46,477 nucleotides of DNA, taken from Saccoglossus kowalevskii (taxonomy: Eukaryota; Hemichordata; Enteropneusta; Harrimaniidae). Location of the stretch: contig NW_003158749.1 in NCBI RefSeq assembly GCF_000003605.2, forward strand, positions 63,332-109,808, written 5' to 3'. A program made the translations under genes and the position numbers. The notes under the pieces are model-generated. The model made no database searches, was not told the DNA's origin, and was given only the letters and a program-made list of their open reading frames with translations. How positions within the stretch are numbered: position 1 is the stretch's first letter; every line of letters starts with the position of its first letter. Shown here one piece after another: positions 26,079 to 44,334 of this stretch.

Positions 26079-26366
26079 ATGGGAAGCAGGCATGAACTTG
26101 AAGAATTAGGTTTAAACGCAGAAAAGAAAGGCGTTCTACCAAGAAGTTCTCAAGTATCGGAACCCGAAGATGACAACGTTGTTAAAAAGATTGTTGATGG
26201 ATTTTTGAACAGCACCACAGTGGCTGGTTTGCCACGTATATTTGAAGGAAGGGGACCTATCGTATCTTCATTTTGGGATGTCGCTTTCATCCTGGCTATG
26301 GCGGCTTCCGTGTGGCAAATTGAAATAATTTTCGAACAATACTTTGAGAGAGATGTTAACGTCAGG
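26079..26366 (+). CDS. Channel exon 1: N-terminus and first membrane segment
   Basis: Starts at ATG in the context TACCATGG, with an in-frame TGA 33 bases upstream, and ends at a GTAAGG donor in phase 0. It encodes 96 residues: an acidic cytoplasmic start, [14 protein letters not shown], then [20 protein letters not shown] as the membrane segment. DEG/ENaC channels normally have His-Gly where this has Ala49-Gly50; that motif influences gating in ENaC, so the change is notable. Confidence 0.9.
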
Positions 26367-29300
26367 GTAAGGCATGCGTATACTGGTAAGGTTTTATATA
26401 TTATGTGGCAACCATGTCCACCATCATTTCAATTCGCGTTTTAAATATTGTTTCATGTGATCCCGAATTGATAAAATCATTTATATAACCCTTTTGGGGT
26501 AGGATTTAAGAAAGGCTTATGAATGACCAATAATGACCATGGTTTATTTGTCACAATGCTTGATATCACAACATGCACCTTTTAACCCTTTGAGACTTTT
26601 TTGGCCTTTTAACGTTCACGGTGATCAGCGGAGTCAATGCACCCTCATCGATAGACTCAGAAGGAAATTAATAGAATTATATGTACATGATTCAAGTAAG
26701 ATTAAATTGTGATCCGTCTGTGATGTATGTGAAATCCACTCCCTCTTAGTGGTTATTTTAGAAAGACACCGGAAACATCCCTTAGTATTCTATTCCTATT
26801 AACCTTTCTTACACGTGGAATTCCCGGACACGACATGAATTTGTATGTGAATAGCTGCTCACTTCTATATTTCAAACTACCCGTTTCAAAACAAATGAAA
26901 ATCGACCGTAGAACAGCATAAGCTATTACTAGTAGTATTTTAAGTATTCGACTGCAAAGCAACTCGTGATTTTGTTGTACAAAGTTTAATTGTTTACATG
27001 TGATCACATCCTACCCACATCCTACCCTCAACGAAAAACAGATCGTGGAACAAACAGTGAGATTTCGAGGGATGGTAAAATATAAATCAAAAACAGATGG
27101 GGAGCGCGTTTTTTATTCGGGGTGAGCGCCTTGAAGCCATTGAAGCGGAACATTGGAGGAAAACAGATTTGAAACCCAAATGTATGAAAACTAATCTAGC
27201 CACAATGAACTAAACCAGTATTGATGTAAATATACACTTTAAAACCAAACAATATAGTAAGCGTACGAAGATTCAGTCACAATAAATACGCTACCCTGAG
27301 TGCGCATAATCCATTCCTTGTCGAATGCATTCGCGTATCAATGAATTTTCTTTGAAATTTCACTTTAAAATGTGATCGAGATCTCCCGGCAGACAAAAAC
27401 TGTTTAAAAATGGGTAAATGGGTGCGTGTCGCCGTATGATTGTTGAACGTCATAACGATCAAAGAGTTGAATGGTGTCACGTGAATTCTAATATTAAGTA
27501 CTTGTGCTTTGAATTCGTTGTTGCTATATGCCACTTTCTAAATTGGCTATCTAAACGCGTCCATGCTAATAAATGATTGTTCACTATAATGAATGGGAAG
27601 AAATAAAAGTGGTGTGTTTATGTTTTTATTGTAAGAACCAGAATACTCAAAGGGATAAAAGCTGTGCTTATCAATATATGGTATCGATTAATATCGATCA
27701 TTATGCGCTGGCAGCGATTGATCACGGATTATAAATACGTGCAAACAATACACGTGTCTTTTTATTTTACAGATAAAGGTCGTCACAACTCAAGGCTTAC
27801 CTTTTCCCAGCGTTTCAATCTGCAACACAAATAAATTTCGTAAATCTGCAATATCAATGTCGCCATACTCCAAACTTGTAACTGTTGACACCGAAATAGT
27901 ACGGTCATATTATGGTAAGTGCGTAGTAACATGTCTTGTGGAGATATTCATATTGACGGGGTGAACGGTTCTGAACAATTGTATATTTCAATCGGTCAGT
28001 AATTGTGTAATATTCATATTTTGAGGCGTATATTCAATAGTGTAATATATGTTTTTTTTCATATCCTTGCAACCTTACGAAATGCGCTGTCGACCGAACA
28101 CTTCAACCATGTGCTAGTGTTTTAGCATGATTTATTAACCGATGTTATCTTAAAACGATAGTAAATGAAAATTACACAGTGTCCAAATCCCTTCAAACAA
28201 AAAAAATCGGTGCATTATATTTGCAGCTCTTCAGTGTCTTGAGGGAGATTTTCCATGCAATAATAGTGGGTGTATCAAGCCATATTTACTTTGTGATGGT
28301 TATGATAATTGTGGCGATAGAAGTGACGAAAAAAACTGCGACTATGGTGAGTTCTATGTCGACTTCTTTCTCTTTTACCAATTCAGAGATCTAGGTATTA
28401 TACATATTTGGAGAATACAACGAATATTTGTTAACAACGTGTGACTAGTCATTGTTGACTGAACGTTAACATTATGCTCAAACGGAAGTATTCTAGGATT
28501 TTCTCATTTATTTTTTTACAAAACCAAATGGCGCCAGCTGTGTTAGCTTTATGTTAAGCAGAACATCAACGTTAATGAGAAGTTTATTTTTCTCGAAAAG
28601 ATCTCAACAATACCACAGTGTGCTGTGCCACATTGTTCTTGCTCTACTTAGTTGATCCTTCCCTAAGAAGTACTAATTCAATTTTGTAATTCAATTAGAT
28701 AATCAGTTTATTCAGTTGCGAGTGCAAAACGTAGGCTATCTGGTTAGGCTATCTGGTGTCGGATATAAAACATGTCTTCACAAAATCGGATGACTAAGTT
28801 GCGACTAGATGGATCTTGTGCACGTTAATAAACATGTAATAATAATTAAGAATAAAATGACAATGATTTGATTCTGAAGTATTTGTCCTGGCAATCGATA
28901 CATTGAAATATGAGCACTGACTATAATACGTTACCATGCTTTTTTCTAAACCTTCATGAACTATAGGCAGTTGCAGCAACGATCTTTTTAAATGCAAAAC
29001 GGGAAGTGATTTTGGTGTTTGCATTAACCTCAACTCAAGATGCGACAGAATATTAGACTGTTATGGGGGAGAAGATGAAGACGACTGCGGTGGGTTGATA
29101 GTTTTAATGGCATGAGACTAATTTGTTAAATTGTAATAGAAATTTAAATAGTTAATTTGTTTGTTGTTTTTGTTGCCCAGTGATAAATAAATTCGTTTCA
29201 GATGTGTCCACCTCGATCTCTACAGTGTAGAGTTTTACCGAGACTGTAAGTAGTACCACTGACAATGACAATATTTGTATTCCAGAGTGTATAGATAAGA

Positions 29301-32300
29301 AGGAATACAAATGTTCGGATACTGGTCGCTGCATCAAGTCTTCTAAACGGTGTGATGGTGTAGACGACTGTGTAGATGGCAACGATGAGAAAAACTGTGA
29401 GTTTTGTTATTTCCTGTCTAGAAAGCATGCAGACAAACACGCACCTAATTATATTTGCCAGTAACACACATAATTATATCAGCTTATGCGCCTGCACAGA
29501 CATTGCAAGTGATCGCTGCTATCTTCTTGTGGTGTCAAAATATTTCCCCCAATGAATCACCTTTAATTGATGGTCAGATCTAACAATTCAACAACTGTTT
29601 TTGAATGGTAAATCATTTGCCAAGATGTAATATGCTGACAGTTTTTCAAATATCACAGCGTACACAACAGCTATACATCACATGATTTGTACGCAAAAAA
29701 ACTAAACCGAAAAAAAAAACAACGAAAAATGTCTCTGTGAAAACGATTCTAATTAGTTCGACCATACACTGCGTTATCACCTAGAGAGATATTGTGCGAC
29801 GGACGAAACGATGAAGGCGTATTCACACCAGATTTAAATTCAGATAATGATTTTATTTTAGCACAAATTAAAAATATTTTGTAGGGACTAAGAAAATCTA
29901 GGAATTATATAGGAAAACATGACATTGGCTATCTACGACGTTAAACACGACATATTAATAATTACTAAACCCAATCAACGGCCATTTCAGGGCCCCAATA
30001 TCGAGGACTATCGTAATCTTCACATTCAATAATAAATTTACGCATTACCGAACCACGATAACACTCACTACTCCGATACATGTTTCAGTGAAACTCCACA
30101 TCAGCACGGCTTGCGAATTTAGCTATATCCTGACTGACCATTTTGTAAATAGCATAATATTAACAAGCGATTATAAAGATGACTGAACATTTAGTATGTT
30201 TTGTGAGTGTTTAACACACATTGATGGGCACATTTCGGGTTTTGTACTACGTGAATTATCATGATAAAAATACACATAAAAACTAATGTAATAAATCAAA
30301 TTCAGACGTATGTGGACATTTGAGACACGATTTGTGCTTGACGTTCTACTGTAACAAGTTGTATCGTAAAGAAAATGTATAAAATTTTGACTGCAATGTT
30401 TCAATGCTGATTACAATCACGACAAGGTTTGTCTAAACATACTTAAACTCAATACGGACGCTCATAGTAAAGCAATTTTAATAATAAAAACTATTAGAAA
30501 TAGAAATAGCACGAAACGCCTACTCGTGTATTTTTCCCTAAAGTATATTGATAAATGTATAGAAAAATATGCACATACCTAATATTGAGTTGTACAAAAA
30601 GCACAATCCAAAAACCATTATTAGCAAATATTAGATATTTTCATATTTGTTTTTGCATTGCTGATTATGTGTTTCTTTTTAAATGTTATGATTTTTGTTC
30701 CATTCCAGTTAGTCCATTTTTTTTTCTTTGGGGGATCTCTTCAGTAAAAGAGAAATATTCTCACACCAATTACAATGTATTTTGCATATCGTGCATAAAT
30801 TACTTATTTGTTCGTCTATGATATATTATATCATAGAAATATTAACCCAGGCCGAGGTGGATATGTAGAAGTGAATATTGTTGACCGAGGCAAATCTGTA
30901 TATGGACCTTGGCTAGGTCAATATTTGTATATACCGATTAAAACAACCATTTGTAAAAGGCTGAATTTCACCATCATTGCTGGCCATGTTTTGGCAACAT
31001 CCCGAATGTTCTCAATTCATTGGTAGCTGTTTCATCACACTTTGTATGGTTCCCATGTATTTATATTCCATAATCCTTTTCAAAATATACTGTAATAATT
31101 ACAATGTGTGTAGGTATCACTGGTTACCGGCGACTGTTTGACACTTTAGAAGCTGCGACGTTTACACACGACGCGTGCAATACATTTTACTTGATGAGAT
31201 AACTAGAAGCATTAAACGACGCCAATAAATCACGGAATGCAGTGCGAAATTGAAGTAATAAACGCTAGCTATGTGTACGGTACGGCGACTGTGGTCGGTC
31301 CTACCGATATAGTCGTGTTGTTCGATGACTATCTCACGGTCAAAAATATCCACATAAAACATAACTCGTCCAATGTAATGGAATATACATTGTTGGGCAA
31401 ATAATACACAAGTAAAGGTGAAACTTAACGCCAATATGTGTGTTTACGCCCTCTCTTGTTCGCTTCGCACTGTTCTATGCATGCTCTGTTTTCTTCATGT
31501 ATTAAGAAATATTAAGAAATATGAGTTATTTCCGCTTGTTTAGCGCTCCAACTAAAGTGTCTTGTTGTAGTCCAAGCTTTCTATACAACAGGTCTTTCAA
31601 GTCAATTATGCAAATACAAGGACCATCAATTGTACGTGTCTGATTGGCTACGATGTATAATCATAAATTATCTTATATTATCGGTTCACATTCAGGCTCA
31701 CTCAGCTACAATTGTCCAACACGTTCTTTCAATGTGATGATGGACGTACGTGCTTTCCACAATATTATCGATGTGACGGCGATTTTGACTGTCTAGACAA
31801 AACGGACGAAACAGGCTGTGCAAATCGATCAATCAGTGATGGTAATTATTACTCATATATTGTATCTAATGTTTATTTGTTGCCACAATAAGTCTGGCTA
31901 GGCTAGGATTGGCTAAGGGACAGATACATTTTTATAACTAATTTGTTTAATGATGTTGAATAAAAATAAATCAAAGTTGTGCATCATTAAACACGTTTTG
32001 CAATTTTACCAATGTGATTTGTCAGTGTCATTTCGGACTTTTACAAATGTATGCGATCATTGATTAATTGATTTATCTTATAATTGAACGCCCAAGCAAG
32101 TAAAGTTATTCAAAGATAAACATAATAAATATATACTTCTATTATTAATATTGTTATTGCCATATATTTGTGAGTCATGCTGCCGTGCATGAATAACATT
32201 AGGTAAATATGTTCTGTTATTGTTATTGAACTTATTATACTTCTAAAATAATAAAGGAAAAACGGTAAGTATTGTCAATGTTAAAGTTTCAATAACATGA

Positions 32301-35300
32301 TAGCAAACATTTATTTGTTTGCAATTTTCTCTATTCTCTGCAAGTCAACTGTAAATAACCCAACTATACAATAATATGACGCTCACTCATATCACATTTT
32401 TCTGCGATGAAATTACCAACTGAGAGGGAGTACACCAATCGTTATTTGGTTCGTGACACAACTGACAAGCGTACAATATACATACTTTTTGAATATGTAC
32501 TTTTATTTCTATAATGCATTCGAAGTGAGAAAACCGAATTCGTATTTTTTTAGATAATGTTACCTGTCCAGACACTATGTTTAAATGCGAAGAAAAGTGT
32601 ATACAGGATATGTGGGTTTGCGATGGATTTGTGGACTGTCTTGATGCCAAAGATGAAATTGGTTGTCATATATATGGTGTTATTGGTAAGATGCACCCCA
32701 TAACACAGCTAATCTCAACAATTCCAATTGTACAAAATGGACAATGAATATGAAAACTAGTGGTGCACGTGGTTGACAATTTTAAATGTTTTCACAGCCT
32801 GCAACGACATGGAATTTCTCTGCGATCTCAGTCAATGCATTCCTAACACGTGGCTTTGTGATGGAATGGCCGATTGTTTCGACGAAACTGATGAAGACAT
32901 GCAGAATTGCTACGGAGGTAAGTACAGGGACTTTTAAAGGAATATAAATAAATATAGTATTACAAAAAACAGCCTGATCATGGTATGAATAGAAGCACAT
33001 TACCTGTTGTGTGACGATGGTCCATCTTGCAAATAACAAGGATAGAGTATGAACCGCAGTGGTCTATGGGTCTTTTATTAGAAGACAAGACGAGAAGAAC
33101 AAACGCAAGAAACTGTGGCACAACAACTCATTATTTTTACAAAAACAGTCTCAGTTAAATCCGAAAGCACATCAATTTTTAATGTAACATGATACATACA
33201 CAAAAAGACCTACCTCAAGTTAAGTTTGTCAATACATACAAACGATAAAAATACGAAAACTCGTCTTTATGGTGAGAAACCTGCCAATTATATTACAATC
33301 ACTTTAATCATCACCATTCTAACGAATCTAGTATAACACTAACACCATTATCAGCATGATCTCTTCATTCTCCAGTTCCAACTCCTATATGTTGTACATC
33401 ACTCCATTTGACGCGGGGCTACATATGTTCTACTATTACCAAATCAGCGAACATTTCACGACTGTGTTTCATGTGCGCGCCTGTATTGAGTATACAGTCC
33501 AAGTGGCGAGGAATGTAAACAAATAACTTATTACCGACCGACTGTCCGCATTCGTACACGTACCATTTACTCCATTTAAACTTTCATCCAGGACGCTTTC
33601 TTAATTTTTTGGGGGTGGCTTGTTTATTTCATGTTATAAAAGGTATCTGCAACGTTTTCAATTATTTACCGAAATCCTGACATCGTGTCCATTTAACCAG
33701 ACAAAAAACTTCTTGACTTTACCCAGTATATTTTAAATATTGATGTTTACTTTAGCTTTAAACAAACGTGTAAGAAAAATACACATTTCTCTGATCGACA
33801 CCAAAACAATTAACTCAGATTTTATTGGCCAGAAGAGATTCACTTACCACACTTACACACTCCACAGTGCATCCAAAATATAAAATTGTTCTTGTCGCAA
33901 AGAGTAGCGGTTTATACTGAAATATCCCTCTCAAAACATGTGTATGCTGTCTCTCATTTTCGAGTCTGTATATAGACTCCAGGCCTGTTGACAGGAAACG
34001 ATAATATCTGTTGGTAATAAGCATCTTTAATTTGATAATCATTGTCTGAATAAATAAATAAATAAATAAATACATTTATTCATTTTGAGTTCTATTTAAT
34101 CAATAACAGTTTATCTCAACAAGATTGTGCTACACTACACTACATTTACCACAGAGGGCTTCATTTTATTAGGAGAACGGGAAATATAAATTCACGTTTA
34201 ATCTTCACAGGTGTTGGAGAGTGTTTTTTCGATAGCAGAGGAATAGATTATCGAGGTACGGCAAACATCACTGTTGGCGGCAACATATGTCAGAAATGGA
34301 ACGCCCAAACACCACACTCGCACATTTATACACCACATGAATACAACAGCAGTGGCATTACAAATCATAACTATTGTCGCAACCCAAGTGAATCATCCGC
34401 GACGTGGTGTTATACAACAGATCCAATGGTGCGATGGGATTGGTGCGATATTGGTGAACCTGGAGTGAATTGTAGTAAGTAACAATGTTTGAGGACATTT
34501 GTACAGTATTTGTATTTCTACCATGTGTTCAACACCATATTACAACTTAAAATAATAGTATGTACAACTTCATAATAGTGAGTTCGGGTTCCAGCTTGGC
34601 CATATTTATTCGACAAACGTCGGCATAAATGATCATTTAAATGTAGTATACTCATCGTAGTTACAACAATTCATTGAACAATATTGTTTATTTCAAAGTT
34701 AATATGGTTACAGCCATTATTGAAGTCATCTTTGTCAACATAGTCATATTGATGAATCAAAAGGATTGTATTATTGAAACATATTTTATATTGTTGTTAT
34801 TTTTTGCAGAAAAGCCTGTTGATGCCTGCTATAACTTTGAATTGAGATGTGACGAGACGTGTATACACAAAATGTTGCTCTGTGTTGGTATCAAGCACTG
34901 TCCTTCAGGAATCGATGAAGAGAACTGTGGCGTAATACGAAACAATAGTATGTTTATACAAAAGAGTAAGGTGACAATACGAGACTAACCACAATATTAA
35001 GTCATATATATAATGGACTAATATGTGAGATGTCGCCATGTGACATAATGTCATTGTTTGCTACTTCGTGTGCTTGCCTGTTTCGGGCCTGTATCTATTA
35101 TTTGTATTACAGGTGAATGTTTCTACGGTTTTAATGGTGAAGACTACAGGGGGTTGAGGAATTTCACCATCAAAGGCAAGCCATGCCAGAAATGGACGGA
35201 GCAAACACCGCACGCACACGCATACACTGAACACGCGCTCAATAACAGTGCCTTTGGAGATCATAACTATTGTCGTAATACAGGTCGCGATCAGGCAACG

Positions 35301-38300
35301 TGGTGTTTCACCACTGACCCGGCAGTACGTTGGCAGTGGTGTTCTATCGGTGATCCAGGATTGAATTGTGGTATGTAGTAGAACTTGTGTATATTTTGCT
35401 AGCTACGTGTTATTACTGCCATCGGTATTACACGCTGACTCATTTTAGTACCTGAGTCTAATTAATGATTTACTTAGTCCGTTTTTTCTGGTTTCACATT
35501 AGTTATTGTATATACAAAACAGACCAACGCGGCACCATATTATTATTAAATTCTTATATTCAAAATTCAACATTCAGTAAGTGCAGTGTTCCATCGCCGT
35601 GTCATTTTACGGGCATTCTGTGCACACACTTCGTTCACAATTTCTTGTTGTCCCATTCTGTTCAGACAACACCCCGTCCCCATACCGCGTGAATCGGTGA
35701 AATATATTTTCATCAATGATTTTTATATCGATAACCCAACTTTCTTCTTAATCTAGAAACGCGATGAAACGTTCTGTTGTTGTGAAAAACGTATATATTG
35801 CGAAATAAACAACATGAGTTAGTAATAGCTCGGTATCAATTTGACTAAAAATACCATTTGCTTGGCGACTAAAACAAAACCCTACCTACCTAATTGTATC
35901 ATTCACATAAATATAATTATGTTGCGGCAAGTGTTACAGATTGGTCACTTTTGATCATAGTATATGGTGCTCCACATATTGCAAGAATATTCATTATGAA
36001 ATATATGTGTTGCATCGTTATATTAATATGCATTATATCATTATACTACTAGGGGATACTTGTGATAAACCAAATTTTGAATGCAGCGACTCCTTCTGCA
36101 TTCCTGGTGACTGGGTATGTAATGGAATCCGTGATTGCTTCGAAGGAGAAGATGAAGCAGGATGTGAATATAGTACGTATATAGCAACACGTGATACAAT
36201 GCAAAATATCAGATACTATTTTAGACAGGGTGGTGCCACATTTGGGGCTGGCTGCAAAACTCAAAGAAATCGTATGTAGATTGTTTTTTATATACGTGTA
36301 TGACGTCGCCAGGATTTTCTGAAATTTAAATGTGATTGTAGGACAACACAATACGAATATGTCCAAAAACATAAACGTATCTTTTCTACATCACTTATTA
36401 GGCACAGATGTATTTATTTGTGATGGCGGGAAACGTACAATTAATATTCATTTTCTATGTGACTACTATTTTGACTGTGAAGATGCTACCGATGAAGAGC
36501 CAAGAAACTGTCCAAGTAAGTTCAAATTAATGAAATTAATGTCCTTTAAAAATATAAAAAGTCAATATTCTTATATATATCTCTATATTATTTGTTTCAT
36601 TGAAACGCTCTTGCTACTGGCTATATTACATTGCGCTTTTCTCTACACAAGATTTGGTTATTGTGACTAGTTTTTATTATACAAATGAACACCCCAACAG
36701 AGGTAGACATAAAGTTTTCGCGACCTGAAGAGCTCATTGTCAATTGGCTCTGAACGCAAACCTGGCAAACTAATCAGTTCATGAATATTGCCGCGTATCG
36801 TGTTCCCTCAACAAATCAGGCAAATTCAGGAATAAGGTATCTGGATGGAGGTAGACATACGAATATGGCAGCGGGTCGACACACGAATATGTCTACCTGC
36901 AATACGCAAATCTGATTGGCTGTCATGGCCATGATGTATAATATAATGATATGTCACTAATGTGATACGTCGATGGCTTATATTTAAATCAATCGTGTTC
37001 AAACTATGCTATTTGTTTACGACATCGTGAAACAAGATACACAGCTTTATAATGAAACAAATTAAAAATATATATTTCACAGACATGTCATTTAAAATAG
37101 ATCGTTTTTAAAAGTGCTTATGTTCATTTTTCGCATTTTTCTTCTTCTCAGATGTGACAATTCCAAAAGCACCGGGTGAGTTTTCAATTTTTATTTACGG
37201 GGCTATTTATTTGTTATCGGCAATTCCAGTTCCGATTCAAGAACACTTTGTCAATACAAAATATGAATTATATAGCACATCTCTGTCCCCACCTAAATTT
37301 TAAAAAAAAAAACATGAAATGGACCTTTTTTATTCAGGATTACGAAAGTACAACATTGTTCAACTATGATATGCTTAGATAATACTATTATTTCTTTGAC
37401 CTTTATTGGTTTGCATATGTAAGTCACAATTGGAATAACGTATAACAAAAGAACTGCATACATAATTATTTTCCAGATAGTAGTTATGGAAACTGACCAA
37501 GCATATCATGATTTATTTGTGATATTTATGATATTTGTTAACAAACACAGTATTAGTGATAACATGCTCACATTTTCAGGTTTCCCAGTTTTCCGATGTT
37601 TTTCAAATGGTAAAGAAGTACCACAGTTTAAAGTGTGTAACAATGTGATTGATTGCAATGATGCCAGCGATGAACTTGAATGTGCACATGGTAAGCTGAT
37701 TTTGCTTTTTGAACATCTCAATTACATTTCGATTGTGATTTACACAATCAAAATCGAATTGAGATGTGCCGTCTAACTATACATCACAAGCTTTTTCTGT
37801 GGCAGTTGAATTTTTTAGTACATGCCGTTGGAAACATGTTAATGCTTGTAAACAATTGTGACATGTTTTACATCCAAATTATCAAAATTCATACCATCTG
37901 AACGCAGGAAAGGGAGTCAATTCTCACATCAACTATGGATTGGTAGACTTATCCATTTAAAAATAAACCAGGAAGAAGGCCAAACAATTTTAGTTACAGT
38001 TACATGATCTACAATTATTTTTACATATTCCAGGTGAACGCGCAGATTATCATTTGACTGCAGCTGGTTTACATTCACTATATTCTAGCATTACTAATGA
38101 TATGAACGTATTCAACGAATTCGTGGATAATATATACCAGGACCATATGCTAGGAAGAGTAACTCATGAAAATCCACCAGATTGGAACGGGTTCATCGCT
38201 TACAGCAACGCGCCTGACAACAGTGATCTGGTGGATGTGTTGAAACTTCCCGTTGAGAAAACAGCAAAATATGGCCATCAGCTAAATGATTTTGTATTGG

Positions 38301-41300
38301 AATGTACATTTGATGGTAACAAGTGTAATATGAGTAGGTAGGTTTTTTGTTATTATGTTGGCGAATGTAATATGTTCTTACATTTATATACATATATATT
38401 CTGTTTATCGAGTCATGATCATAACTGTCTACAGCTGACATACATGTACTATTATTCGTCTTCATTCTGATTTGTAAATCGAAAATTCAACTAGCGATAC
38501 AAAGTGCAGTTTTTCTGCAAAAAATGCCTACGTCATTCAACTTATCATCCTGTTGAAATTTAGACGAAGATATTATTACTTCCACATTAAAATGATTTCA
38601 TGTCAGATATGCTGTTTCACAATAGCTGTTTCAAAAATTTATTTCATCGATCCGATCTTAATTAGAGTTCATCACAAATAATATTGTAAATAATATTGCA
38701 CAGAATGATTGTTCTTACCAAGAATACATGTGTCTTGAAACAGTATTCTGACAATTCCTAGTATGGTGATGTCAATTGCGTGACTGTAATGCGCAATAGT
38801 CAACTGTGATTAAAGTATAACGGCTCCCATTCTCCTAGTTTTTATATTGACTGACCTATTGGCACTCACCCAACAAGTATTTAGAGGGTATTGTTTTAGA
38901 AAGTATTTTTCAGATATGTTTTCAAACGTTTTGTCATATGAAACAAATACATACACATCTGAAACAAACCAATCCTTGCGCAGTATCTAAATATCTGAAG
39001 AAAAATAAAAACCATATTACTGACTCTTTATACAAAACTTTGTTTTTTCCGATGAAATAAAATGTATTTTCTACACAATTTTTTTTCAGTGATTTTAAAG
39101 AGTTTTATGATGGTCGTTATGGCAACTGTTTTCAATTTAACCCTTACAACAATGACAGGAAACATGGGCATTTCTCAACGAAAACTGGTGCCAAATATGG
39201 TTAGTAAATGAATAGTCCATGTTTGATTCTAGACTATACATGTTCACCCTTTTTAGCTCCGCTATCGACTTTGTCAAGCGGAGCTTATTATATGAGTGAT
39301 TGTCGGTCGTCGTCCGGCGTCGGCGTTTTAATGAATACTTTTGTCATTTTTGGTAAAAAAGTGATATTTTCAACTCATTGTTGAAAAACGCAAGTTTGAT
39401 TGCTTTGATATCATATATGTATAGTTAATACAGATGGACCTCTCTCATATTTGTTCATTTGATGATGATATCTTCAATTATTATATTGAAATGTGCTTTG
39501 CCATCTGCGGAGCTATCTCAGCCGCTGCTTGTCCCCGTTTGGACACAGTCCGGACCTGTATCTTAGACATGCCTGTACCAATCACAATCAAACTTCACAC
39601 ATACATCGCACATAGTATTATACACATACACATCAATTTGTTTCACGGTCTGATTCAAGATGGCCGAGAGGCGGATATTTTTGTGCTGAAAAATCATCAA
39701 AATCAAGCATTTCTCGGCTGTTACAGATGGATTTTGTTCAAACGTGGTATATACATTAGACATTATGGCACCTTGATGCAAGTTATTTTGTTTTTCAGAT
39801 AAGATTCAAAATGACCGACTGGCGGCCATTTTTCTCTAATGAATGTGGGTCTAGTGCCATATTTCTGATTTGCTTTGACTGATTATGTTCAAATTTTAGT
39901 AATACATTAATTTCAGGACTGAAGATGACGCTTTTTACTGAGCAAAATGAATACATCAGTATATACGGACGTGATTCCGGTGCAAGAGTCGTGATTCACC
40001 ATCCAACATTGCGTTCCATGCCCGAATCTGAGGGAATTACAATACCGCCAGGAATAATCACATCGCTCGGGATGAAGGAGGTGTGTTTTCGTTTAATGTT
40101 TTGAATAATTCACAAAACATATTTAGTTATCGGAAAAATCAATGCACTATGTCTGATATAATAAAAATAAAGTATGGGACTGATAGATAATGAACAATCA
40201 ATATAGCTACAGGATATTACAAATTTATTCGAAAGGCATTCAGGTCCAGGGAGTATAAATCCAATTACGTGGCTATGGTGAAATGATCATGGATCACATC
40301 ACATCACATAATATACGTTAGAGATGATATTAAATGTATCAAAAGAGTATATTACAAGTCGTCATTGGGGCAGCTTGTGAAGTCACAGTCTAAACTTGCG
40401 TACAAGGAACAAGTAAATTTCCAACTGTTATAAATATCATATAATCTCATGAAATCCACACGATACTAAACATGTATATGAGTGTTTGTTAATTTCAGAC
40501 CAGGATAAGTCGACAACCAGACCCCTATGGAAACTGTACTCAACAAAAATATTTTGATAAAAATCATGAATTGTTTTACTCTCAGACAGTAAGTAGGTAT
40601 AAGAAAATGTACAACTTTACATCTATGTGTATATTCTCTATCTATTTCACATGTGGGTTTATTGCACGCCTGCTTTATACTAACATAAAATTTTACTGTT
40701 GATTGACCATTCTGAAAGTAATTAGCTTATCAATCTTCCTTGGACATGTGATAGTAACACGTGGTTATGAAAAGTACAAACAGTACAAACGTGTATTTTT
40801 CATAGAGTGGTTTATAATCGCTAAAATACCCTGTTTTCCTCGCCATCTATATTACTCCAGATATGTGAGGAGTCGTGCTTACAAGATAACATGTTAAAGT
40901 ATTGTGGGTGTGTCGATACAATGTTACGAGGTGAACCTCAGTGTCTGTTGCTCAATAGAACACAGGGTAAGTTGCACATGTTTTTACATAAAAAATTAAA
41001 CCAAGCAATCATAAGCGCAGCAATATTGATCTATGCTAGGGTTGTCAGTAAACCTATTTATCTAGTCAAAGCTGTGGGTTACGACGTCCTTGTCCGCATT
41101 TTAAAATACTGCAGCTGTAAACTTTAAGCATTTATATTCAAGCCAATCGCATAGGTCCTGTCAATCGCCACTGTCTTTTTACTTTCCATGATTTCCTTTG
41201 TTTTATACAACTAATTCATGTGGAGAACTACTTACAACATTCGCTTGGACGTTGTTTGTAAGTGAGATTGTTATATCTCATTTGTCAATTACAGATGTTA

Positions 41301-41901
41301 AGCAATATTTACCCATTTCTGCTTATTCATCAGATTCCTGCAAACAGCTGATACAATTTTTTGCCCGAAAGTTGTTATTGGGCTGCAAGTGCCCTCAGCC
41401 ATGCACGTGAGTATTACGTCAATTAGGAGACCCAATGGCTATTTGAAATGATTGAGCCTGTTATATTAATATATTATTTATTTTTACGCTTTCAATTTCA
41501 GACAGAGTTGGTACTCAACAACAGTATCACAGTCGTTGCACCCATCAAATAGTTTTCTTGTAAGTGCACGCAATTATCTGAATTACATCACATAGATTAC
41601 ACAATAAATAAAAGAATGTGATATTATTCTTTAAATATCGGGATAACACAATCATAGAGAAGTTGCATACTATTTCAAGTCATGTCAAACTAACCTTGAA
41701 CTAATGTCCCGCCATAGCCATTAACATGAAAAGGCGGCCTTTAAATAAAGAGAAATGCAGGAATAACAACAAACCAAAACAACATACAAGTTCTTAACCA
41801 TTATAGACAAATTAGCTCAAAAACACAAACTGAATGAATAAATAATATAGTGTATACGATGATGCATCGTGTTTAAAAAAACGAACACAGTCTTCCCTAC
41901 C

Positions 41902-41942
<41 letters not shown>

Positions 41943-44334
41943 GAATTACATATTGCTTAATGTATGACCTAAATCTCTTTTCAGCAACTTTTATACTAGC
42001 ACACTCATCGAGTGCGTTTGGATTTCGCGTAAACACGCGTATTGTATTCGTCCCTTGAGACTCGCATCAAACGCGCTTTGATGCGTCTGCTATGTACCTT
42101 TGATAAATGCAATAATAAACGGCACGTGCACTGATGGCTAAACAGCTGAAATAGATTTTAGCTGAAAACACCAGCTAATGGAAAGGCATTTCACTCATTC
42201 CTATTAGCAGACCGTGCAACTAGGATAAGTTTATAGCTCATAATAATCAATTAACGTTTAAATTAGTATCAAAAAGTTATAATCTCTGTCTGTGTTTAAA
42301 CATTGCCAACAAGACAACTGTATGGTTATGGAAATAGGCCACATGATCAAGACTTTTATAAGTGTTTACACTTTCACATATTAATATTTTTTTTTGCGAA
42401 TTTTGTTTGAAACAGAAACATTTACTGAAACAGATTCACCATAAAAACGCGAAGACCAAAGTGATCAATGACTTGGAGGGTTTTAGGTACGTCTTAGAGT
42501 ATATCACGTGAGATAATGTATGTGTGTTTTCAATATCTTCTCATAGTCCATTGAAACAAGAATAAAATAGCTGAATAGAATCACAGAAGTATATTAGAAT
42601 ATCTATACAGTGGGTATAACCAAGGGATTTCATATTCAGATATTGAATGACAAGTTAATTACCATTGCAGTAAACAAACAACAATAGTTTGTAATGTTCA
42701 AATTAAATTTGGTAACATTTTATTTTTCAGCAAATTTTGAACCGTTTTCGGCAATTATTTCCTGAATAATCCATGTAACGCAGTGCCAACATTGTTTTCT
42801 GTATGTATATAGGATATAAACTTGGTGAGAATTTGCCTGCTAATGCAAATTCAGTATTCATACAAACCTGTATAAACAAGTGACATGATAGTGAAAAATG
42901 TTACCTAATAAGTATCAATCCAAACGCCCTGACAGTTTTGCCGAAAAATAAAGATTTGATGACATCATCACGAAATGATCAAATCAGAACTTAAACTACA
43001 CATTACTATACATTATCAACATATTAATTTGCTACATTTTGGTCATTTGTTTGTTATTCACAGTCCAAACAATTTCACATGGAAAATTATTAATTGTGAC
43101 ACTATGCACATGGAAATACAATACTAGTACACAACTCCAGCACAAAACTCTGACTTTCAGATTTTTGGAAGAATACAAATCAAAATATAAAAATGCTCAT
43201 CAAATATGACCTAGAAATGCAATGCAATCATGAGATTTAAGAAAAATGAAATTTTCACCTACATAACATCGTAACAACACTTTTCCATCTCCCCCACCTG
43301 ACATTTATATCAAACCCCAACTTAACGGTTTTCCAAAAATAGTTCCATTTACAAATCACAAATTTACACCTGAGGAATTAACACTATGAGGAATCTACAC
43401 TTCATATTCTCGCTAGCAAATTAGTAGTTAGAACATTGAACATTGTTCTGCATGATTGGCAGATACTATGCTTTATTTTTTACTTTATATGTAGTGGAAA
43501 CCATTCTCTTGCCTGCGAGTTCATGATTAAAAGGTCATGTGATCATATGCGCACATGTGATTATACGTAAATTATTGTATAAATATAAGGGGAGGGTAAA
43601 TATAATAGATGACGGTATTCAGTACAAACAAGCTAACGCCTGTAACAGAAAGCATTACTGGATACCATTGAAATAATTGCCAATATATTAAATATACGTA
43701 TCAACCTATAGCAACAAGTTCAAGAACTACATATAGGTTCTTGCTCAATATACCAATCATTGTTTCGACAATGACAAATACATAGCTACATGATTCAGGA
43801 GCCAATTAACTGTTAGTCGACCATTAGTTTTAATTCAGTTTGTTCTCTACCAGTTTTAATTAGTGTTCTAATCAGAGTTTTACTTTGCTAATGGCTAATA
43901 TCAATCTATATTATACGTAATTGTGGCTAAAAGTACGCAGTGTAATTAATCATTTGACGTATTTTCTCTCCAGGCAAAACATTGTACAGCTAGAGGTGTA
44001 CTTTGAAGAACTGAATTATGAAACTATTACTGAGGTGCCTGACATTACGGTGAGTTTCTCACACCAACAATATAACGTCAAATGCATTTGCACTTATATT
44101 TGTTCGGAATATTCGAGTTCATATACGAGTACTGGGTTTTATTTATTTTTTGATGATTTCTTTAACAGATTTCAAATAAGAGTTTTATATTTGCAGATGG
44201 AGAACCTGCTCGGTAATATTGGGGGTATACTAGGATTGTACTGCGGTTTTTGTGTCATGACAGTAGTAGAGCTTATACAGCTTGGATGTGATTTAATCCG
44301 GGCAGCCTGGATTAAGAAGAGTAAGACACACTAG
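26079..44334 (+). CDS. DEG/ENaC channel subunit with LDLa and kringle modules inserted in its ectodomain (whole gene, 25 exons)
   Basis: The spliced product is a predicted cation channel subunit of the DEG/ENaC superfamily at the cell surface, normally a trimer. Twenty-five exons join with compatible phases if one base missing from exon 6 is allowed for; the product is then about 1146 residues. Order: cytoplasmic N-terminus (1-64), first membrane segment (about 65-86), first palm strand with [12 protein letters not shown], an insert of about 145-737, channel ectodomain (738-1101), second membrane segment (about 1106-1130), and a short basic tail. The channel part alone is about 550 residues, the usual size. 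The insert is LDLa x6, kringle, LDLa, kringle, LDLa, and two four-cysteine LDLa. FaNaC/ASIC-like features include [18 protein letters not shown] and [11 protein letters not shown]. An upstream in-frame TGA (26,046) and a strong Kozak context support the start. Ligand, ion selectivity and expression are unknown. Confidence 0.88.
26367..27772 (+). other. Intron 1
   Basis: About 1.4 kb from GTAAGG to TTTTATTTTACAG. I see no other gene or recognisable element in it. Confidence 0.7.
27773..27914 (+). CDS. Channel exon 2: first palm strand
   Basis: Phase 0 in, phase 1 out. Contains [18 protein letters not shown], the conserved start of the DEG/ENaC ectodomain (FPAVTICN in relatives), with its first cysteine. 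It ends with VRSYYG, immediately before the inserted modules. Confidence 0.9.
28227..28346 (+). CDS. Channel exon 3: LDLa module 1
   Basis: Phase 1 on both sides. Six cysteines in LDLa order, with [22 protein letters not shown] and RSDEKNC. All acidic calcium-cage residues of the family are present, so calcium binding is expected. Confidence 0.93.
28967..29089 (+). CDS. Channel exon 4: LDLa module 2
   Basis: Phase 1 on both sides. Pattern [33 protein letters not shown]; six cysteines with a slightly longer second loop. The donor is GTGGGT, weaker than the others. Confidence 0.9.
29286..29396 (+). CDS. Channel exon 5: LDLa module 3
   Basis: Encodes [33 protein letters not shown]; its sixth cysteine codon is split by the intron (T plus GC of exon 6). 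Start taken at the acceptor TTTGTATTCCAG. A more pyrimidine-rich acceptor at 29,200-29,201 would add 28 Ser/Thr-rich residues in the same frame but includes a TAG at 29,228-29,230. Which acceptor is used cannot be settled by eye. Confidence 0.8.
29397..31695 (+). other. Intron 5 (2.3 kb)
   Basis: The longest intron of the gene. No coding module was found. Around 30,845-30,930 there is a loose inverted motif (GACCGAGGC against CCTTGGCTAGGTC). A piece near 31,630-31,670 (TCTGATTGGCTACGATGTATAATC) resembles 36,905-36,935 in intron 13, so both may carry a dispersed repeat. Confidence 0.5.
31696..31841 (+). CDS. Channel exon 6: LDLa module 4, one base short
   Basis: The exon starts GCTCACTC, which with T from exon 5 makes the Cys codon that closes LDLa 3. 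It then reads [10 protein letters not shown] in one frame and [30 protein letters not shown] in the next. Its length is 146, while neighbouring phases require a multiple of three. The break lies at about 31,727-31,731 (TTCTTTCAATG). A missing base in the assembly or a real frameshift would explain it; the flanking code is otherwise intact. Confidence 0.85.
32554..32685 (+). CDS. Channel exon 7: LDLa module 5
   Basis: Phase 1 on both sides. [30 protein letters not shown]; six cysteines and intact acidic residues, with a nine-residue tail before the next module and an Asn-Val-Thr sequon before the first cysteine. Confidence 0.92.
32798..32917 (+). CDS. Channel exon 8: LDLa module 6
   Basis: Phase 1 on both sides. 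[35 protein letters not shown]; complete LDLa. Confidence 0.93.
32918..34210 (+). other. Intron 8
   Basis: About 1.3 kb with no coding module seen. It contains an AAAT tetranucleotide run at 34,049-34,071. Confidence 0.6.
34049..34071 (+). repeat. (AAAT)n microsatellite in intron 8
   Basis: About five to six AATA/AAAT units in a row. Confidence 0.85.
34211..34474 (+). CDS. Channel exon 9: kringle 1
   Basis: Phase 1 on both sides, 88 codons. All six kringle cysteines are present: [53 protein letters not shown]. The acidic pair that forms the lysine-binding site in plasminogen kringles is not seen after NYCRNP (Ser-Glu-Ser there), so classical lysine binding is not predicted. Sequon NIT before the second cysteine. 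Confidence 0.95.
34810..34947 (+). CDS. Channel exon 10: LDLa module 7 with lost calcium residues
   Basis: Phase 1 on both sides. Six cysteines are kept ([30 protein letters not shown]), but the usual CDG-x-x-DC is CVGIKHC and the following acidic position is also lost. The module lies between the two kringles. Confidence 0.9.
35113..35370 (+). CDS. Channel exon 11: kringle 2
   Basis: Phase 1 on both sides, 86 codons. [54 protein letters not shown]. It is close to kringle 1, including an N-x-T sequon at the aligned position (NFT), which suggests a duplication inside this gene. Confidence 0.95.
36053..36172 (+). CDS. Channel exon 12: LDLa module 8
   Basis: Phase 1 on both sides. [32 protein letters not shown]; six cysteines, complete. 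Confidence 0.92.
36402..36515 (+). CDS. Channel exon 13: four-cysteine LDLa module 9
   Basis: Phase 1 on both sides. [31 protein letters not shown]. Cysteines 2, 4, 5 and 6 and the acidic residues remain, but cysteines 1 and 3, which bond to each other in LDLa, are both absent. Confidence 0.85.
36849..36898 (+). other. Hairpin with 11-base arms in intron 13
   Basis: AGGTAGACATA at 36,849-36,859 is repeated inverted at 36,888-36,898. A third, direct copy lies at 36,701-36,711. This is likely part of a dispersed repeat. Confidence 0.6.
37152..37175 (+). CDS. Channel exon 14: 24-base microexon
   Basis: Between a strong acceptor (TTTTTCTTCTTCTCAG) and GTGAGT, phase 1 on both sides. It encodes NVTIPKAPG, a linker with an Asn-Val-Thr sequon. 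Skipping it would keep the frame, so it could be optional. Confidence 0.7.
37580..37690 (+). CDS. Channel exon 15: four-cysteine LDLa module 10
   Basis: Phase 1 on both sides. [29 protein letters not shown]. As in module 9, cysteines 1 and 3 are both missing while 2, 4, 5 and 6 and the SDE end are kept. Last module before the channel resumes. Confidence 0.87.
37714..37766 (+). other. Imperfect hairpin at the start of intron 15
   Basis: CATCTCAATT (37,714-37,723) pairs with AATTGAGATG (37,757-37,766), and GATTGTG (37,731-37,737) with CACAATC (37,743-37,749). It begins about 25 bases after the exon 15 donor and could form in the pre-mRNA. Confidence 0.55.
38034..38337 (+). CDS. Channel exon 16: ectodomain resumes (finger region)
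   Basis: Phase 1 in, phase 2 out. Helical acidic sequence ([17 protein letters not shown]), then [19 protein letters not shown], matching the conserved GH-x-x-x-DF-x-x-x-C-x-F-x-G-x-x-C of DEG/ENaC. No LDLa or kringle sequence remains from here on. Confidence 0.9.
39090..39199 (+). CDS. Channel exon 17: YGNC motif
   Basis: Phase 2 in, phase 1 out (GTTAGT donor). [19 protein letters not shown] carries the conserved tyrosine-glycine-asparagine-cysteine block of the family. Confidence 0.92.
39255..39340 (+). repeat. Dispersed repeat with palindromic end in intron 17
   Basis: AGCTCCGCT (39,255-39,263) is inverted as AGCGGAGCT (39,277-39,285) and followed by GGTCGTCGTCCGGCG. I recall similar sequence being common as an interspersed repeat in marine invertebrates. 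The rest of the intron to 39,916 holds no coding module; its 122-codon frame is unrecognised. Confidence 0.5.
39917..40080 (+). CDS. Channel exon 18: central palm region
   Basis: Phase 1 in, phase 0 out. [36 protein letters not shown] and TSLGMKE follow the DEG/ENaC order closely and look most like ASIC/FaNaC members. Confidence 0.93.
40499..40588 (+). CDS. Channel exon 19
   Basis: Phase 0 on both sides, 30 codons. Contains PDPYGNCTQ, the conserved start of the cysteine-rich thumb region. Confidence 0.9.
40861..40966 (+). CDS. Channel exon 20: cysteine-rich thumb
   Basis: Phase 0 in, phase 1 out. [19 protein letters not shown] and EPQC show the family cysteine spacing. Confidence 0.92.
41295..41406 (+). 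CDS. Channel exon 21
   Basis: Phase 1 in, phase 2 out. SDSCKQLI and LGCKCPQPC are the end of the cysteine-rich block. Confidence 0.9.
41502..41559 (+). CDS. Channel exon 22
   Basis: Phase 2 in, phase 0 out. [16 protein letters not shown] matches the conserved Y-x-x-x-x-S-x-S-x-x-P of the lower palm. Confidence 0.88.
41904..41942 (+). repeat. (AT)n microsatellite in intron 22
   Basis: About nineteen AT units. Confidence 0.95.
42416..42486 (+). CDS. Channel exon 23
   Basis: Phase 0 in, phase 2 out. [11 protein letters not shown] and VINDLEGFR; joins exon 24 to give the expected F-R-x-N-x-V segment. The least conserved exon, supported mainly by phase and splice sites. Confidence 0.78.
42487..43973 (+). 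other. Intron 23
   Basis: About 1.5 kb, AT-rich, no coding module or recognisable element seen. Confidence 0.6.
43974..44049 (+). CDS. Channel exon 24: final palm strand
   Basis: Phase 2 in, phase 0 out. [18 protein letters not shown] is one of the most conserved DEG/ENaC stretches, leading into the second membrane segment. Confidence 0.95.
44197..44334 (+). CDS. Channel exon 25: second membrane segment, pore and stop
   Basis: Phase 0 in. [20 protein letters not shown] then [11 protein letters not shown], and a short basic tail to TAG. The selectivity filter, GAS in ASIC and G/S-x-S in ENaC, reads Gly-Phe-Cys (residues 1118-1120). The Gln of the usual GGQ-x-G is Ile. AAGAGTAAGA just before the stop could be a donor giving another C-terminus, but no matching downstream exon is seen. 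Confidence 0.92.
   Translation: MENLLGNIGGILGLYCGFCVMTVVELIQLGCDLIRAAWIKKSKTH

Follow-up and report, generated by a model that had tools for sequence, protein, structure and literature searches.

A DEG/ENaC-type channel gene carrying inserted LDLa and kringle modules in Saccoglossus kowalevskii, and its relatives in the same genome

Studies of DEG/ENaC channels have dealt with proton, peptide, touch and salt channels whose ectodomain is compact. LDLa and kringle modules are generic protein-binding parts in other proteins; LRP2, LDLR and VLDLR, with their LDLa clusters, and plasminogen and HGF, with their kringles, are endocytic receptors or secreted proteins, not channels. The nearest precedent for a channel of this family with added extracellular modules is the set of EGAS-1 to EGAS-4 channels of C. 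elegans, in which EGF modules are joined to an ASC domain; no current above controls is reported for these channels in oocytes (PMC10424705). In vertebrate ENaC, gating is controlled, via proteolysis, by a small beta-strand domain called GRIP, situated between finger helices 1 and 2 (PMC6197857). For mechanosensing by DEG/ENaC channels, tethering to matrix has already been put forward as a model (PMC10148893). The gene described here resembles the EGAS genes in having extracellular modules added to a DEG/ENaC core, but its modules are LDLa and kringles, without EGF. The first-pass annotation of this gene had cited the EGAS channels as a modular precedent, as is borne out here, and had known of no characterised channel with kringle or LDLa modules. 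Among the matches listed in the open-access literature, no description of a DEG/ENaC channel with either module was found; kringle and degenerin did not occur together in one paper, and the two papers combining degenerin with LDLa were protease papers by their titles. Predicted proteins of the LDLa/kringle-ASC type may already be present, unremarked, in public sets.

The window, that is, the whole stretch of 46,477 nucleotides that was analysed, comprises positions 63332-109808 of the forward strand of contig NW_003158749.1 (labelled C4796) of a 572 Mb assembly. Using open frames, splice sites and phases, I assembled a DEG/ENaC (ASC) gene of 24 exons on the plus strand, which runs from an ATG at 26079 to a stop codon ending at 44334, the same ends as previously annotated. 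With an alternative donor for exon 5, the predicted protein is 1126 residues long, and the inserted part (588 residues) is larger than the channel (538 residues), as had been claimed, if only narrowly. A second gene occupies 125848 to about 146988 on the same contig; the window gene ends at contig position 107665, approximately 18 kb before it. This tandem paralog is collinear with the window gene exon by exon over 24 exons, and the exon lengths are equal modulo 3 in 22 of them; exon 6 differs, as does the last exon, for which the end was set slightly past the stop codon. Earlier gene models of 1109, 1109 and 1132 residues were behind the first paralog comparison, the Pfam scan and the PDB matches of the LDLa modules, respectively.

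The channel part begins with exon 1 (26079..26366), which encodes the N-terminus and TM1, has an ASC match, reads VAG at the HG position and ends in phase 0 at CAGG/gtaagg (the slash marking the splice site). Exon 2 (27773..27914) encodes a 10-residue post-TM1 strand and the first finger segment. After the insert, the channel resumes in exon 15 (38034..38337) with the rest of the finger and the start of the central ectodomain; the ectodomain continues through exons 16 (39090..39199), 17 (39917..40080) and 18 (40499..40588), the Cys-rich exon 19 (40861..40966), and exons 20 (41334..41406) and 21 (41502..41559). Then follow the small exon 22 (42416..42486; 23 residues), exon 23 (43974..44049) with the LNYETIT strand, and exon 24 (44197..44334) with TM2, GFC at the filter position, the C-terminus and the stop codon. 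Exon 22 could not be chosen from the window sequence alone, there being a gap from 41559 to 43974. It was found by pairing nine exon candidates from the paralog with 52 from the window; the pairing score was 105, and the best pair without this window exon scored 7. An acceptor at 41295 for exon 20 and a donor at 34926 for exon 10 were dropped in favour of the sites conserved in the paralog.

A complete DEG/ENaC core had been annotated, and this was upheld by Pfam and PDB matches. In the preliminary spliced protein of 1109 residues, the ASC family (PF00858, 1.1e-74) matched in two stretches covering both ends of the channel. The best PDB relative of the core is the alpha subunit of vertebrate ENaC (6wth, 3.2e-51), and ASIC1 also matched (9e4a, 3.7e-43), with the LNYETI and TM2 region being alike. 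In both proteins, the TM1 and TM2 regions are matched by exons 1 and 24, respectively, which flank a large Cys-rich ectodomain. ENaC shares with the window gene the presence of extra finger sequence, while ASIC1 has no such insert.

The 12 insert exons, exons 3 to 14, all have phase 1-1 given the conserved exon 5 donor, and a module-skipping transcript would thus stay in frame and may exist. The end of exon 2 and the start of exon 15 are also in phase 1, so that the insert exons fit between them and connect the two halves of the channel in a single phase, in agreement with the one gene previously proposed. With the alternative exon 5 donor, the insert exons contain no in-frame stop. Six LDLa modules come first: exon 3 (28227..28346; 43.9 bits with PF00057), exon 4 (28967..29089; 29.3 bits), exon 5 (29286..29396; 37.9 bits), exon 6 (31696..31841; 35.5 bits in the downstream frame), exon 7 (32554..32685; 36.4 bits) and exon 8 (32798..32917; 43.1 bits). 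Kringle 1 is encoded by exon 9 (34211..34474), LDLa 7 with a degenerate calcium site by exon 10 (34810..34947; 24.0 bits against a cut-off of 24.1), kringle 2 by exon 11 (35113..35370) and LDLa 8 by exon 12 (36053..36172; 44.1 bits). Two reduced LDLa modules, exon 13 (36402..36515; 25.4 bits) and exon 14 (37580..37690; 29.4 bits), complete the chain. This is the module order that had been annotated, and the counts agree as well: all ten LDLa exons match PF00057 singly, nine of them above the cut-off, and both kringles match PF00051 with six Cys each (counted by eye). Amino acid identity to the paralog is 70-71% for kringle 1 and 85% for kringle 2.

The LDLa, kringle and ASC families were all recovered in the Pfam scan of the preliminary 1109-residue protein. 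Ldl_recept_a matched in eight stretches (5e-63) and Kringle in two (3.6e-39), and no family other than these and ASC, hence no EGF family, was found at E 0.001. In the 46.5-kb window, the LDLa and kringle matches at E 1e-4 were these ten and two alone, all on the plus strand between exons 2 and 15, and 20 first-order Markov resamples of the window gave no LDLa or kringle match with the same HMMs. Since these HMMs were built from the modules of the gene itself and its paralog, Pfam is the independent test. A chance origin of the module matches was ruled out by the single-exon Pfam scores and the absence of matches in the 20 resampled windows.

What might these modules bind? The best PDB matches of the insert modules are the LDLa clusters of LRP2, LDLR and VLDLR and the kringles of plasminogen and HGF; both kringles also match apolipoprotein(a) kringles, and exon 9 finds plasminogen kringles. 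Six Cys are present in seven of the ten LDLa modules, five in exon 6 (in the reading with the alternative donor), and four in exons 13 and 14, as in the paralog. The last two lack the first and third Cys of the module; since these two form a disulfide with one another in LDLa domains, the loss is coherent. DE is present in all ten modules, and both acidic cage positions adjoining C4 and C5, which I take to be the calcium-site residues, are kept in six of the ten (exons 5 and 6 being read by eye). Calcium-dependent folding is therefore likely for only part of the chain, as far as these residues predict it. In the kringles, the aromatic residues and Arg align with those of plasminogen kringle 4. 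The Asp pair, which together with the aromatic and cationic positions presumably forms the lysine-binding site, reads Ser/Ser in kringle 1 and Gly/Asp in kringle 2. Since this pair of plasminogen-type kringles is mostly lost, classical lysine binding is not predicted for either kringle. The insert is acidic (108 Asp and Glu versus 49 Lys and Arg), and its 588 residues contain no furin motif (RX[KR]R).

Is this architecture limited to one gene? It had been presented as a singular oddity, and this did not hold. Two minus-strand loci on contig C3229 each have 12 LDLa and three kringle positions between the TM1 and finger pieces of a channel and keep the order kringle, LDLa, kringle; their third kringle extends across two open frames and has weaker E-values. 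Together with the tandem paralog, an LDLa-kringle insert is thus present at three other loci. Among the 86 kringle matches found in the genome by a search that scores only the best candidates, those lying inside ASC genes belong, as I read them, only to the window gene, its paralog and the two C3229 loci. On the question of a single kringle origin, a tree of 19 sequences groups the four kringles of C4796 together (0.94) and places C3229 kringle 1 elsewhere. The loci on C4507 and C603 have the same core and LDLa chain, with six LDLa modules in C4507 and five in C603, where the start of the locus is cut; no kringle match was found in either of the stretches analysed. The C3229, C4507 and C603 loci are known only at the level of domain matches in open frames.

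LDLa exons near channel exons are more widespread. Among 150 LDLa matches scored, the best of 1658 candidates, 40 lie within 30 kb of an ASC match on the same strand, compared with 0.46 expected from uniform scatter, matches of one gene not being independent of each other. These 40 are distributed over 18 contigs, and 29 of them lie on 16 contigs besides C4796 and C3229. The arrangement with an N-terminal ASC piece upstream and a C-terminal piece downstream of the LDLa match was found in 48 pairs versus 12, some of the 12 coming from neighbouring tandem genes. Six more TM1 loci, picked from the ASC matches on contigs without a listed LDLa match, were inspected over 3 kb each, and an LDLa exon lies downstream in all but one of them (C3614). 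Judged by domains and splice sites, the architecture is real and replicated, and it is broader than one gene; LDLa exons recur at the same site in the genome. In 14 control genomes, the ASC search matched in one (the bacterium Thermotoga maritima) and the kringle and LDLa searches in none.

Some other features of the assembly were recorded. DEG/ENaC genes on C3473 (25-111 kb) and C2355 have TM1 through palm in one long exon, without a long insert there, and differ in this from the LDLa-bearing genes. An open frame of 1735 residues at C4670:36558-41390 is packed with LDLa repeats. With genes named by eye, the mitochondrial contig C4830 has COX1 in the opposite orientation to ND1 and COX2, and ND6 after CYTB; the code reads TGA as Trp and AGA as Ser, with AAA at conserved Lys and ATA at conserved Ile positions. 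The code and the partial gene order seem to resemble those of hemichordates, in which case the orientation of COX1 reflects either an inverted COX1 or an assembly error.

The position of the insert bears on its possible role. Alignment of the core with ENaC alpha and ASIC1 holds up to query residue 123-126 and resumes at 222-223, at a stretch of 12 residues. The insert follows residue 143, which falls in this alignment gap; thus, it sits in a poorly aligned stretch of the finger. The first-pass annotation was right in placing the insert in the extracellular loop, but apparently not in placing it directly after the first palm strand, since the alignment with ENaC and ASIC1 points to the finger region. 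The insert probably occupies the position of ENaC GRIP. The two differ in kind: GRIP is a small domain regulated by proteolysis (PMC6197857), and the insert consists of 588 residues of disulfide modules in a row and lacks RX[KR]R. Exon 2 ends ...SYYG/GT, a glycine codon split G/GT in phase 1, and the splice position and phase are identical in the exon preceding the insert in all seven genes checked, including the window gene, its paralog and the C4507 gene, where this exon was read.

The reading that I prefer, with a probability of roughly 0.5, is that the gene encodes a DEG/ENaC subunit whose finger-borne module chain binds an extracellular partner and biases the gate, which would make it a receptor-channel or a tethered channel. 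The subunit would belong to a cation channel of DEG/ENaC type and bear its ten LDLa and two kringle modules in the finger near the GRIP position. The acidic, partly calcium-dependent LDLa chain and the kringles would bind an extracellular protein or a matrix partner. This binding, or tension carried by the partner, may move the finger and thereby bias the gate, so that the channel could be ligand-gated, matrix-tethered or force-gated, the three modes already suggested in the first-pass annotation.

It is possible, if somewhat unlikely, that the modules act outside gating, and that they hold, cluster or traffic the channel through matrix anchoring, cargo binding or endocytosis. Generic protein-binding parts, as LDLa and kringle modules are elsewhere, would suit such a role, and the variation in module number and type, from five or six LDLa modules at two loci to 12 LDLa and three kringles at two others, is as expected for a loosely constrained extension. 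On the other hand, the finger position near that of ENaC GRIP and the splice site common to seven of seven genes suggest coupling to the gate, although they are not decisive.

A problem concerns the window copy itself. The donor AACT/GTGAGT of exon 5 is common to the window gene and the paralog, and in both genes the final Cys of LDLa 3 is restored by the codon that this donor splits. However, when this conserved donor is used, exon 6 of the window gene is one base off the paralog frame and a stop codon follows soon after. A donor 4 nucleotides downstream (after 29400) keeps the frame but is weak by eye, leaves LDLa 4 with five Cys, the first being absent, and gives the insert an odd total of 67 Cys compared with 68 in the paralog. 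No other copy or second haplotype of the exon 6 stretch was found in the assembly besides the paralog. These features are what would be seen if the window copy had lately been disabled or were spliced variably, with the function carried by the intact tandem paralog; I consider this doubtful. The remaining 23 exons of the window gene read open. Since exon 6 has phase 1-1, its skipping would also restore the frame, and the length difference falls at a run of T, which makes an assembly error possible. At exon 6, an assembly error, a disabled allele and a splice choice are all conceivable.

The substitution pattern also argues against a disabled copy. Between the window gene and the paralog, dN/dS (Nei-Gojobori) is 0.22 for the insert (562 codons) and 0.21 for the channel (532 codons), with exon 6 used only downstream of the shift; in some exons taken singly, dS is undefined or close to saturation. 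As judged by this codon comparison, insert and channel alike have been under purifying selection. In blastn, 3564 of the 4033 aligned bases (a total including two kringle cross-matches) are exonic, while exons make up 18% of the gene. The only aligned island without exonic bases is a 47-bp stretch at 37135-37181, within the intron that follows exon 13; it is 81% identical to the paralog region. Exon 2 (window 27770-27920) is 97% identical in DNA to paralog exon 2 (C4796:126545-126686), with a dS of 0.06 versus 0.56 in the whole channel part and 0.76 in the insert; this low value suggests gene conversion over exon 2.

The pore motifs of the pair are also altered. The HG motif before TM1 reads AG and the G/SxS filter in TM2 reads GFC in both the window gene and the tandem paralog, in contrast to HG and GAS in ASIC1. 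In the same genome, HG is kept in all nine other TM1 stretches that reach the motif (another six TM1 matches stop short of it) and GxS in all four other TM2 stretches read; the C4507 locus has both, and the C603 locus has GxS. Among the relatives read, AG and GFC were met only in the C4796 pair. Assignment of the pair to DEG/ENaC is by homology and not by the functional signature of HG and G/SxS. The previously annotated complete channel stands as to its core; the exon 6 frameshift and the altered motifs had been overlooked.

The HG and GxS motifs are important for selectivity and function, according to a review, which also gives measured permeability ratios, with raised K permeability, for alpha-ENaC S589C, a change at the same filter position (PMC8536179). 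Since the His of HG and the Ser of the filter are both changed, conduction by the pair is not assured. If the altered motifs abolish or reduce the current, the pair may encode non-conducting or dominant-negative regulatory subunits that modulate HG/GxS-bearing partners. The restriction of AG and GFC to the pair would be consistent with this, as would the importance ascribed to the motifs. However, the filter mutant of alpha-ENaC does have measurable permeability ratios, and the TM2 exon remains under selection between the window gene and the paralog; I regard a non-conducting role as improbable. A natural GFC filter with AG may instead indicate unusual selectivity, or a subunit working with HG/GxS-bearing relatives.

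Finally, it is very improbable that a separate secreted LDLa/kringle gene lies between the channel halves and that the fusion is an annotation artefact: LDLa and kringle exons do occur on many other contigs, but every insert exon is of phase 1-1 and fits the exon 2 donor and the exon 15 acceptor, the order is kept in the tandem paralog, and inserts of this kind are also present at the two C3229 loci. The first-pass annotation had named such a nested gene, or splicing of exon 2 only to exon 16 (the first exon after the insert, which is exon 15 in the 24-exon model), as what would speak against a fused channel; neither gained support from the phases, the open frames or the three further loci.

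If the modules do bind a partner and bias the gate, as in the preferred reading, the idea may be extended, tentatively, to a whole class of channels in this animal: many DEG/ENaC channels with LDLa chains near the gating site, a subset of them with kringles, in which ligands of the lipoprotein-receptor or kringle type, or matrix, would open the pore directly, and among which the C4796 pair would have an unorthodox pore with GFC and no HG. Chains of LDLa and kringle modules borne on the finger would show exon shuffling turning a channel into a receptor. Tether and ligand gating could be tested on natural constructs from this gene set, and the gene pair provides a naturally occurring Cys as the third filter residue together with a natural loss of HG. 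The larger group of receptor-like channels in this genome suggests a class in which ligands or matrix may be sensed directly.
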